Shown here one piece after another: positions 4,374 to 9,861 of a stretch of 32,988 bases of DNA. The notes beneath the pieces are model-generated. The model saw only the letters and a list, made by a program, of their open reading frames with translations, had not been told where the DNA came from and searched no databases. The number at the start of each line of letters is the position of its first letter. Position 1 is the stretch's first letter. Source of the DNA: Acidobacteriota bacterium (GTDB taxonomy: Bacteria; Acidobacteriota; Thermoanaerobaculia; Multivoradales; J023); assembly GCA_003697015.1 (NCBI GenBank), contig RFGL01000437.1, positions 1 through 32,988 on the forward strand, written 5' to 3'. The translations under genes were made by a program, and so were the position numbers.

Positions 4374-6383
4374 TCAGTCGGCCGGCGCCCTCGTCTCCGC
4401 GGCCAGGGCGAGGACCCGGCGTACTTTGCGGATCAACTTGCGCGGCGTGAAGGGCTTGCGCAGCAGCTGCTCGGGCGCCGGCGGCCGGTGGTTGTCGAAG
4501 AGCGCCCCCTCAGTGTAGCCCGACATGTAGAGCACCTTGAGCCCGGGTTGCCGGCGGCGCATCTCCTCGGCCAGCTCGAAGCCGCTCATCCCCGGCATCA
4601 CCAGGTCGGTGAGCAGCAGATCGACGGCGGTCGGCTGCCGGCGCAGCAGCTGCAAGGCGCGCTGGGGATCCTCGGCCCGCAGCACCCGGTAGCCGCTGCT
4701 CTCGAGGCACTCGGCGACCAGGGAGCTGACCATCGCTTCGTCGTCGACCACCAGCACGGTGGCGCCACCGGCGTCGACGTCGACCTCGGGTCGCGGCGGC
4801 GGCGGCGGCGCGGCGCGACGGGCTGCGGCACGGGGAAAATCGAGATGGAAGGTGGTACCGCGACCGGGGGAGCTGGTGACCGCGATGCCGCCACCGCTCT
4901 GCTTGACGATGCCGTAGACCATGGCCAGCCCCAGGCCGGTGCCCTCGCCGCGCTTCTTGGTGGTGAAGAAGGGTTCGAAGATCCGTCCCCGGGTCTCGGC
5001 GTCCATGCCGACGCCGGTGTCGCGGACGGTCAGCCGGACGTAGGGTCCCGGCACCAGGTCGGGATCGTAGGCGAGGTCGGCGGGGCCGAGCTCGCGGCCT
5101 TCGGTCTTGAGGGTCAGGGTGCCGCCCCGGGGCATGGCGTCGCGGGCGTTGATCGCCAGATTGAGGACCACCTGCTCGAGCTGGCCGAGGTCGGCCTCGA
5201 TGGTGGTGCTCCCCGGCTCGAGCTCGATCACCAGCTCGACGTCCTCGCGGATCAGGCGCCGCAGCATCCGCTCCATGTTGGTGACCACCTGGTTGAGCTC
5301 GACCGGCTCGGTCCTGAGGGGCTGGCGGCGGCCGAAGGCGAGGAGCTGCCGGGTGAGCTCGCCGGCGCGGCCGGAGGCGCGGACGATCTCCTCGGCGTAG
5401 CGGGCGAGGGGATCGCCCGGCGGCAGGCGGTCGCGCAGCAGCTCGCCGTAGGAGAGGATGGCGGTCAGGAGGTTGTTGAAGTCGTGGGCGATGCCCGCCG
5501 TCACCCGGCCGATGGCCTCCATCTTCTGGGCCTGGCGCAGCTGCGCCTCGAGATGGCGGCGCTCGCTGGTGTCGCGCATCACCACCACCCGGGCGGTGCC
5601 GCCTTTGTAGGGGATCGACCGGCCGCGCAATTCGACGGTGAAGGGGGTGCGGTCCTTCTTGTAGCAGGTGATCTCGTAGGGCTCGTCGTAGCCGGCCTGG
5701 TGGCGGTCGATCACCATCTGCTTCTGCGCCTTCGCCACCCGGCTGCCGATCGGCGCGCCGATGACCTCGTCGACGGTGAAGCCGAAGAGGCGGGCGAACT
5801 GCTCGTTGGCGTCGACGATCTTGCCGTCCTCGAAGACGCAGATGCCCTCGAAGGTGGCCTGCGCCAGCCGCCGGAAGCGCTCCTCGCTGTCGCGCAGGGT
5901 ACGCTCCGCTTCCACCCGTTCGCGGATGTCGTGGTAGAGGGCGAAGACGCCGATCAGCTCCTGTTCCAGCATCAGCGGAATGCCGTAGATCTCGACGTCG
6001 ACCAGCTCGCCGCCGGCGCGCTGGCGGCGGGTGGTGACGTAGACCGTCTCGCCGCCGCGAACCCGAGCGGTGATGCGGCGTGCATCCTCGTCGAACCGCG
6101 GTCCGCCGATCAGATCGTCGAGGTCGCGCCCGAGGATCGCCTCGCGGGAATAGCCGAAGAGGGATTCGAAGGCCGGATTGCAGGTCCTCACCCGGTGCTC
6201 CGGGTCGAGCAGCACCACCGCCAGGGGGGTGTGCTGGAGCAGGCCGTCGAGGAGGGTGGTGAGCTCGCGGATCTGGCGGGTGGCGTCGTCGCTGCCGGTT
6301 GCCGCCTGCCGCAGGCGGCGCAGGGCGGCCGGCAGGATGGCGACGAGGGGAAGGGCGAGGAGGGTGGCCGACGGTCCCGGCAT
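4374..6383 (-). CDS. PAS-PAS hybrid histidine kinase with C-terminal receiver domain
   Basis: A 669-residue sensor kinase. Residues 5-22 are one hydrophobic segment. Two PAS domains follow (about 40-155 with [17 protein letters not shown], and 160-275 with [17 protein letters not shown]). The HisKA phosphoacceptor is H300 in [10 protein letters not shown]. The HATPase_c domain shows the N-box [10 protein letters not shown] (N412), DTGVGM (D455) and [14 protein letters not shown] receiver domain (541-660) has acidic residues VVDDE, phosphoacceptor D593 in LLTDLVMPG and K643 in LRKPF. The HDFNNLL motif and the attached receiver place it with PAS/hybrid kinases that often act without a dedicated output partner nearby. 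It follows the YyaL fusion gene by 37 bases, so the two are probably co-transcribed. No DNA-binding response regulator lies in this window, and the signal is unknown. The ATG has no clear Shine-Dalgarno. Confidence 0.95.
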
Positions 6384-6420: not shown

Positions 6421-8832
6421 TCATTCGGCGGGAGACGTTCCGATCGTCAGCTCGCGTTGGATCGGCGGCAGGCAACGCTGATCGTCGCAGGCCTGGTAGG
6501 TGAGGAGCAGCCGGGCGCTCTCCGCCGGCCGCATCTCGCCGGCGATCTCCACCGTGCCGTCCCAGACCGCCACCGGCCGTTCGGCAAAGGCCAGCTCGAG
6601 TCGCTTGGCGGGGGGGTAGCGGAGCGCTCGCAGCTCGCCCGCCGTCGCCTCGACGGTGGTGGGGATCAGGAAGTCGTCCGACGCCGGGTTGGCGTTGACG
6701 TGCCAGCCCGGCGCGACGCTCAGCCGTACCTTCAGCGGCCGCCAGCCGCCGTCGCCGGGATCGCCGAGCTGCGCCGTGGCGGTGACCAGGCCGGCGGCTT
6801 CGGCCTCGGGGCTGCCCGGGGCGGGGTGGGGCAACGCCGCCCGGCGTTGCGCCGCCGCCGCCGGACCGTGGTAGCGCGCCACGGCGAGGGCCAGGGTCTG
6901 GTAGGCGGCGGGAGCCTGCTCGACCTGGGGGGCGAAGGCCTTGAGAGCGGCTTCGGCCTGATCCCGCCAGCGCGCTTCGCCGGTGCGCTCGGCCAGGGCC
7001 AGGAGGTTCAAGGTCGCCACCGCGTTGGCCGACGGCACGGCGCCGTCGTGGAGCGGGCGCAGTTGGAAGAGGACGTCCGGGCGGGCGGCGGCGGTGACGA
7101 AGCCGCCGTCCGGGTGGCGCAGGCGCGCGATCTGCTCCTCGGTCAGGCTCACCGCCCGCTCCAGCCACGCCTTGTCGCCGGTCGCCCGGTGGAGGGCGAG
7201 GAGGCCGCGGACCAGGAAGGCGTAATCGTCGAGGTAGGCGTCGATCTTGGCCTTGCCGCCGCGCCAAGCGTGCTGCAACGGTCGGCCTTGAGGCCGCAGG
7301 TTGGCGAGCACGAAGCGCGCGGCCCGGGCCGCGTCGTCGACCATCGAACGGTCCTCCAGCAGGCGGCCGGCAGCGGCCATGCCGGCGATCGCCATGCCGT
7401 TCCAATCCGCCAGCACCTTGTCGTCGGTCAGCGGCCGCGGGCGCTGGTCGCGACGGGCGAGGAGGCGCCGGCGCAGGGGCTCGAGGCGCTCGACCAGCGC
7501 CGCCTCGTCGAGGCCCTGCTGCGCCGCCACCCGGGCCAGGGGCTGGGGCAGATGGAGGACGTACTCGTGCTGCTCGAAGGTCGGTTCTCCGTCGAAGCCG
7601 TAGATCGGCGCCAGGAAGGCGAAGTCGCGTTCCCCCAGGACCGCGCGCAGCTCCATTTCGGTCCACACGTAGAAGGCGCCCTCGCGGGCGTTGGTCTCGG
7701 CGTCGATGGCGCTCAAGAAGGCGCCTTCCGGGGAGCTCATCTCGCGGCGCAGGAAGGCCGCGGTCCGCCGCACCACCCGCGCGGCCTGGGGATCGTCCGC
7801 CAGGGCGTACCAGCGGGCGTAGACCTCGAGCAGGTGGCCGTTGTCGTAGAGCATCTTCTCGAAGTGGGGCACCAGCCAGCGCCGGTCGGTGGAGTAGCGG
7901 TGGAAGCCCCCTCCCAGCTGGTCGAAGATGCCGCCGCGGGCCATGCGATCGAGGGTCGTGGCCAGCATGGTGCGGGCCCCCTCGTCGCCGTCTTCGGCCA
8001 ACGCCAGCAGCAAGAGGAGATTGGACGGGGTGGGGAATTTCGGCGCCGTGCCGAAGCCGCCCCAGGTGGCGTCGAAACGCCGTTCGAGGTCGTCGCGGGC
8101 GGCCTTGACCACCGCGGCGGGCGGCGGCGCGGCGGCCGGCCGGTCGCGTTCTTCGAGCACCTGGCGCAGGGCGTCGGTCAGGGCGTCGGCCTGCTTGTCG
8201 ACGTCGGCGCGGCGCTCGACCCAGGCGTCGTGCAGGGCCCGGAGCAGGGTCTTGAATCCCGGCCGGCCGTCCCGATCCTCGGGCGGGAAGTAGGTGCCGG
8301 CGAAGAAGGGTTTGAGCTGCGGGGTGAGGAAGACCGAGTTGGGCCAGCCGCCGTGGCGGGTCAGCAGCTGGGTGGCGGTCATGTAGATCTCGTCGAGGTC
8401 GGGACGCTCCTCGCGGTCGACCTTGATCGGCACGAAGTAGCGGTTGATCAGCGCCGCCACCTCGGGGTTGGAGAAGGACTCGCGCTCCATCACGTGGCAC
8501 CAGTAGCAGGTCGAGTAGCCGACCGAGAGGAAGATCGGCTTGTCCTCGGCCCGGGCCTTGGCCAGGGCTTCCTCACCCCAGGGATACCAGTCGACCGGGT
8601 TGTACTGGTGAAGCAGCAGGTAGGGGCTCGATTCCCCCGCCAGGCGGTTGGGCCTGGCACGGTGAGGCGCCGGCTCGGTGGTGCCCGCCTCCGCCGCCGG
8701 CGGCTCCTGCGGCGAGCCCGCCTCGCCGCCGGCCTGCGCCGCCCCCAGATGGCGGCCGGCGGTCCACGACAGGGCGGCGAGGATCGCCAGGGAGGCGAGA
8801 GCGAGGACGATCGTGCGACGCGGCATGGGCAT
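6421..8832 (-). CDS. exported YyaL/DUF255 thioredoxin-glucanase-like protein fused to a DsbD-alpha domain
   Basis: An 803-residue protein of the YyaL/SSP411 (DUF255) family. Residues 5-35 are a signal peptide or membrane anchor. The thioredoxin-like domain (about 60-220) begins [14 protein letters not shown] and has the redox motif C109-Y-W-C112. The middle part (about 240-660) is the six-hairpin glycosidase-like domain with [19 protein letters not shown] and [19 protein letters not shown]. The last 123 residues (681-803) resemble the N-terminal periplasmic DsbD-alpha domain: [18 protein letters not shown], then YQACDDQRC with C782 and C787, then LPP. Most YyaL proteins are cytosolic and lack both the signal peptide and the DsbD-alpha part, so this is an unusual periplasmic redox fusion. 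It leads the run with the hybrid kinase and FG-GAP genes. An alternative ATG lies two codons downstream (8826). Confidence 0.9.
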
Positions 8833-9521: not shown

Positions 9522-9779
9522 TCAGGCCCCCTCGGCGGCGGTGCGGACGGCGGCCAGGACGTCGTCCTCGCTCGGCCAGGGACGGCCGGTGAGCTTGGCG
9601 ATCAAGCCGCCCCGGCGGGAGATCACGGTACGGCCGTCGACGCGGATCTCGAACTGACCGCGGCGGCCCTTCTCCAGCTCGACGGACCGGCCGAGGGCAT
9701 CGCCGATGAGGGCAGCGAACCTCGCTGCCTTGGTCGCGGTGGTGGCTCAGGTCTGGCAGTGGACGATGCGGATGTCCAT
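9522..9779 (-). CDS. SelW/Rdx-type (SelT/SelW/SelH family) selenoprotein, UGA at 9747-9749 read as Sec
   Basis: An 85-residue protein when the UGA at codon 11 is read as selenocysteine. It starts MDIRIVHCQT, then Sec11, giving C8-x-x-U11, the redox motif of SelW-type thioredoxin-like proteins. The frame after the UGA continues without a stop for 74 codons with family features: a helix rich in Ala, FEIRVDGRTVISR (strand and turn), GGLIAK, and GRPWPSEDDVLAAV at the end. The ATG (9777-9779) has a GGAGG Shine-Dalgarno (9787-9791) with 7-base spacing, so translation is meant to begin before the UGA. A SECIS-like hairpin sits just downstream. The function is probably thiol redox chemistry on an unknown partner. 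With UGA as stop, only a 10-residue peptide results, so the gene is lost in ordinary annotation. A Cys-to-UGA pseudogene is the alternative, but the intact frame and the hairpin argue against it. Confidence 0.88.
9711..9729 (-). promoter_or_regulatory. bacterial SECIS-like hairpin after the Sec UGA
   Basis: On the minus strand, 17 bases after the UGA (9749-9747), GGCAGCG pairs perfectly with CGCTGCC around the 5-base loop AGGTT. This 7-bp stem and GGU-containing apical loop match the form of SelB-binding bSECIS elements, and the loop G lies about 26 bases from the UGA, within the range used by bacterial elements. The hairpin is inside the coding frame (residues about 18-23), as required in bacteria. 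Confidence 0.85.
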
Positions 9780-9861
9780 CGGGCGTCCTCCGGGGGTGGA
9801 TGAGCGTGATCGGCTGAGACGGCGCTGCCGAGGCGTTCCGCCGTCCGCGCAATGCGGGAGA

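Follow-up and report, generated by a model that had tools for sequence, protein, structure and literature searches.

A probable bacterial SECIS hairpin within a SelW-like selenoprotein gene of an Acidobacteriota genome

Known SelW-like selenoproteins and their recoding signals

Bacterial selenoproteins of the SelW-like type had already been described by 2005 (PMC1088965), and the SelB-dependent pathway of selenocysteine (Sec) insertion in bacteria has been well studied (PMC1794560). These proteins of the Rdx family (PF10262) carry a CxxU motif near the N-terminus of a thioredoxin-like fold, and the Sec form is prevalent among them, with few Cys homologues (PMC1088965, PMC1794560). Sec has earlier been proposed as ancestral in this family (PMC1794560), for which a redox role of the thiol/selenol type is assumed (PMC1088965). 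The recoding signal, the bacterial SECIS (bSECIS), has a consensus which, as restated in PMC13188914, consists of a stem of 4–16 bp closing on a loop of 3–9 nt, a G within the first two loop positions that is mostly followed by G or U, a distance of 16–37 nt from the UGA to the apical loop, and a minimum free energy (MFE) of −7.5 kcal/mol or lower. In the Epsilonproteobacteria, where SelW genes are frequently overlooked in annotation, covariance analysis of selenoprotein genes, SelW among them, has placed a SECIS with an apical hairpin of 5–6 bp a few nucleotides past the TGA (PMC4607533).

The gene considered here lies within contig RFGL01000437.1 of an Acidobacteriota bacterium (assembly GCA_003697015.1), of which the whole 32,988-nucleotide stretch analysed is referred to as the window. 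It shares with the described bacterial SelW-like selenoproteins the position of its CxxU motif, its thioredoxin-like fold and the prevalence of Sec over Cys among its relatives. Unlike the others, however, the subgroup to which it belongs has one additional codon between UGA and stem, such that the loop begins after 24 nt rather than 21, and a longer loop ahead of the last helix (GGLIAKLTxRPWP), while the window protein itself falls under the NCBIfam SelTWH cut-offs. With regard to the RNA, the hairpin does not differ in kind from the consensus model. It resembles the Epsilonproteobacterial SECIS in being a covariance-supported apical hairpin shortly 3' of the TGA of a SelW gene, but comes from another phylum, in which the stems are GC-rich and mostly of 5–8 bp. 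In other words, it is a further well-supported example of a known device and no new mechanism.

The gene, its product and the hairpin

The SelW-like gene occupies positions 9522–9779 of the minus strand, its 85 codons running from an ATG at 9779 to a terminal TGA stop at 9522–9524, with a Shine-Dalgarno-like GGAGG (9787–9791) 7 nt 5' of the ATG. A further UGA stands in frame at 9747–9749 and, when read as Sec, becomes residue 11 within the motif CQTU of the product MDIRIVHCQTUATTATKAARFAALIGDALGRSVELEKGRRGQFEIRVDGRTVISRRGGLIAKLTGRPWPSEDDVLAAVRTAAEGA. This read-through protein scores 25.5 bits with the Pfam family Rdx (PF10262), above the cut-off of 22.6, and the domain is single and complete when the frame is read across the UGA. 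Scores against the narrower NCBIfam models are sub-threshold, at 32.1 of 88 bits for the equivalog NF041051 and 21.2 of 34.2 bits for the subfamily TIGR02174, and the protein is therefore not placed under either; the wider Rdx/SelW-like assignment follows from the Pfam match together with the predicted fold and the homologues. In this regard, the AlphaFold model (mean pLDDT 90.4) has a beta-alpha-beta-beta-beta-alpha arrangement in which C8-x-x-U11 sits between the strand of residues 3–7 and the helix of residues 12–29, as expected of a thioredoxin-like fold. The closest PDB neighbours of this model in a Foldseek search are bacterial SelW-family structures (E 5e-5), mouse SelW appearing lower down, and a profile search with the sequence returns the same set (3dex, 2fa8 and 2oka). 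By analogy with the family, a redox function of the thiol/selenol type is most likely. A gene for a DUF255/thioredoxin-like (Thioredox_DsbH) protein lies nearby (6421–8832, minus strand); neither this nor the neighbouring LOG, alpha/beta hydrolase and DUF433 genes, four in all, adjoin the SelW-like homologues that were looked at.

The hairpin lies at 9711–9729 of the minus strand, where the sequence-only reading had placed a perfect 7-bp stem 17 nt past the UGA, and each element of that description is borne out: a 5' arm GGCAGCG (9723–9729) and a 3' arm CGCTGCC (9711–9717) enclose the loop AGGTT (9718–9722), with a spacer of 17 nt (9730–9746) separating the stem from the UGA. RNAfold gives the 19-mer an energy of −13.2 kcal/mol with 8 bp and a loop of GGU, the additional pair being that between the loop A and U at 9722 and 9718. 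Set beside the published constraints, the structure thus has either 7 bp with a 5-nt loop or 8 bp with a 3-nt loop; AGGTT has a G at its second position followed by another G; the loop is reached 24 nt after the UGA (21 or 24 nt in homologues); and the folding energy lies within the bound, as it does in 94% of 127 homologues. A scan of the window against Rfam at gathering thresholds gave no match.

How far such a hairpin could be expected by chance depends on what is considered. When the same peptide is recoded synonymously with local codon usage, 4.5% of draws have an in-register stem of 7 bp, the encoded Ala-Ala-x-x-Ala-Ala in GC-rich codons being prone to pair. The window has 519 TGA trinucleotides, of which 16 carry a comparable hairpin, and 19 C-x-x-TGA sites, of which 2 do. 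Another C-x-x-TGA site than that of the SelW-like gene, at window position 5254 (minus strand), has a 7-bp hairpin on its 3' side, which is probably a chance occurrence. The earlier contention that the combination of hairpin and CxxU gene was unlikely by chance accordingly holds to a moderate degree for the window sequence taken alone, and becomes overwhelming once homologues are brought in.

Covariation of the stem among homologues

Searches with PF10262 and with protein queries over genomes of the phylum gathered well over a hundred homologues, nearly all of which have exactly one in-frame TGA, at the same place. The comparison was made with 127 distinct UGA homologues, drawn from many families of the phylum and all with a frame that is uninterrupted to either side of the UGA, together with 7 Cys homologues; where the UGA is absent the residue is Cys, and not Trp or Gly. 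A narrow-alignment scan of genome contigs matched four named records: one from Acidobacteriota, two titled 'uncultured bacterium' and one labelled as a Pirellulaceae metagenome-assembled genome. The last of these encodes a protein closely related to that of the window, the match ending at residue 56; either a transfer across phyla or wrong binning of the contig may account for it.

In three of the seven stem pairs both bases are third codon positions, which are barely constrained by the protein, and it is here that compensatory change, proposed at the outset as the check on the hairpin, is seen. The three pairs form in 126, 125 and 84 of the 127 UGA homologues, whereas permuting codons among sequences that share the residue leads to an expectation of 79.0, 82.7 and 56.6; for each pair none of 2000 permutations reaches the observed count, although the resulting p-value overstates independence since the permuted sequences are related. 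Pair 1 is C-G in 94 sequences and G-C in 32, and pair 4 occurs as C-G, G-C, U-A, A-U, G-U and U-G. Mapped onto a protein tree from which the stem codons were left out, these states have changed at least 9 times for pair 1 and at least 25 times for pair 4. Independent-pair tests on starred branches, with only 2–6 pairs available, fall short of significance, the differing partner base being concordant in nearly all pairings. Across the UGA homologues, pairing in register amounts to 90% of cells, against 27–62% when the register is shifted by 1–3 nt.

The hairpin is found in the same register in 126 of the 127, some with internal mismatches and some with only 4–5 contiguous pairs. In the remaining sequence the register is shifted and the stem is of 6 bp, TCAGAC-CGTGA-GTCTGA; its loop CGUGA, 17 nt from the UGA, again has a G followed by U, as would be expected of a re-registered SECIS. 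Neither of the outcomes that would have told against the sequence-only reading is thus encountered: an intact UGA is not found without a conserved hairpin, and changes at synonymous positions of the stem are compensated, notwithstanding the internal mismatches. In the Cys homologues the stem is shorter and broken, with 4–5 of the 7 pairs kept and at most 4 contiguous, a comparison that is a weak control as these seven sequences from the phylum form a small single group.

The imprint of the RNA extends to the choice of codons and residues. Loop position 2 is a G in all 127 UGA homologues, and where the loop codon encodes Ser it is AGT in 58 of 58 cases, as against 13 of 195 Ser codons elsewhere in the first part of the genes (Fisher p 7e-45). 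The residues at this codon are limited to Ser, Gly, Arg or Trp, the codons used for these being ones that supply the necessary second-position G. Within the stem, several amino-acid substitutions are accommodated through U-A or G-U pairs: of 14 cases in which Val replaces the second Ala of the helix, 6 have Thr in place of the partner Ala, which converts C-G into U-A; at pair 3, two sequences combine Ser with Glu and form U-A, and twelve combine Ser with Ala and retain a T-C mismatch. These patterns tip the balance slightly towards the view that certain first-helix residues of the phylum's SelW-like proteins, namely that of the loop codon and the Val/Thr that replace Ala/Ala, are set by the SECIS RNA and not by the protein.

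Selenocysteine decoding and its implications

The genome from which the window comes is 96% complete and contains selA, selB, selC and selD, the gene set that marks the Sec-decoding trait, with scores of 481.4 bits for SelA, 342.9 bits for SelB and 370.9 bits for SelD, and of 73.9 bits for a tRNA-Sec (selC) with anticodon UCA. The selD gene, on contig C412, has an in-frame TGA of its own and is probably itself a selenoprotein gene, as in many Sec-decoding organisms. Two further UGA-containing SelW-like genes with hairpins (L001 and L002, on contigs C75 and C208) bring the SelW-like selenoprotein genes of the genome to three, and belong to other subfamilies, CVVU-NY and CVSU-GY. Among relatives bearing a UGA SelW gene, selB scores above its cut-off in all nine checked; one near-complete genome with a Cys homologue only has no selB above that cut-off, while other Cys-type genomes do.

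Three other accounts of the locus need to be weighed, the strongest being that the hairpin is a by-product of coding with no role as RNA. In its favour are the yield of same-register stems from synonymous recoding, the fact that several of the G-C pairs come from first and second codon positions alone, and the pairs that remain in the Cys homologues. Against this, third-position pairs, which are not dictated by the protein, far exceed what codon permutation delivers, the loop Ser is exclusively AGT, and U-A or G-U pairs maintain the stem through several amino-acid substitutions, all of which make a by-product very improbable. A still smaller probability attaches to the UGA being an ordinary stop, with the frame no more than a short peptide or pseudogene. 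This is how translation table 11 would treat it; yet the 127 distinct homologues keep the UGA between intact stretches of frame, the Sec machinery of the genome is complete, and the Rdx domain is whole only with read-through. Genome-wide reassignment of UGA, for example to Trp or Gly, is equally slight in prospect: several genes of the genome do have an in-frame UGA, but those found belong to known selenoprotein families, the SelW-like gene itself terminates at UGA, the tRNA with anticodon UCA is tRNA-Sec, and it is Cys that occupies the site in non-UGA homologues.

The earlier proposal of a bSECIS in a CxxU gene is upheld by agreement with the four published constraints, by homologue covariation and by the presence of the Sec machinery genes; from the sequence evidence, the probability that the hairpin is a bacterial SECIS within the SelW-like coding region, its UGA being read as Sec via SelB, is put at about 0.96. 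From established knowledge of the pathway, SelB carrying Sec-tRNA-Sec and GTP would bind the G-containing apical loop and deliver selenocysteine while the UGA occupies the ribosomal A site; the outcome would be a CxxU redox motif in an 85-residue thioredoxin-fold protein, with the terminal UGA codon of the same gene ending translation.

The locus is well supported as a gene for a selenoprotein, one whose product would be truncated under standard translation, and the Sec form is seen to predominate among the SelW-like proteins of this phylum. A mildly new aspect is that the RNA pairing visibly limits the choice of codon and residue in the first helix. Synonymous third-position covariation, together with the AGT loop codon, offers a codon-level test by which a real SECIS can be told from a by-product of coding, which is useful in GC-rich genomes, where hairpin prediction from one sequence is weak. 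Moreover, if the RNA does set residues of the first helix, a recoding signal would appear as amino-acid covariation, and may be confused with a contact within the protein.
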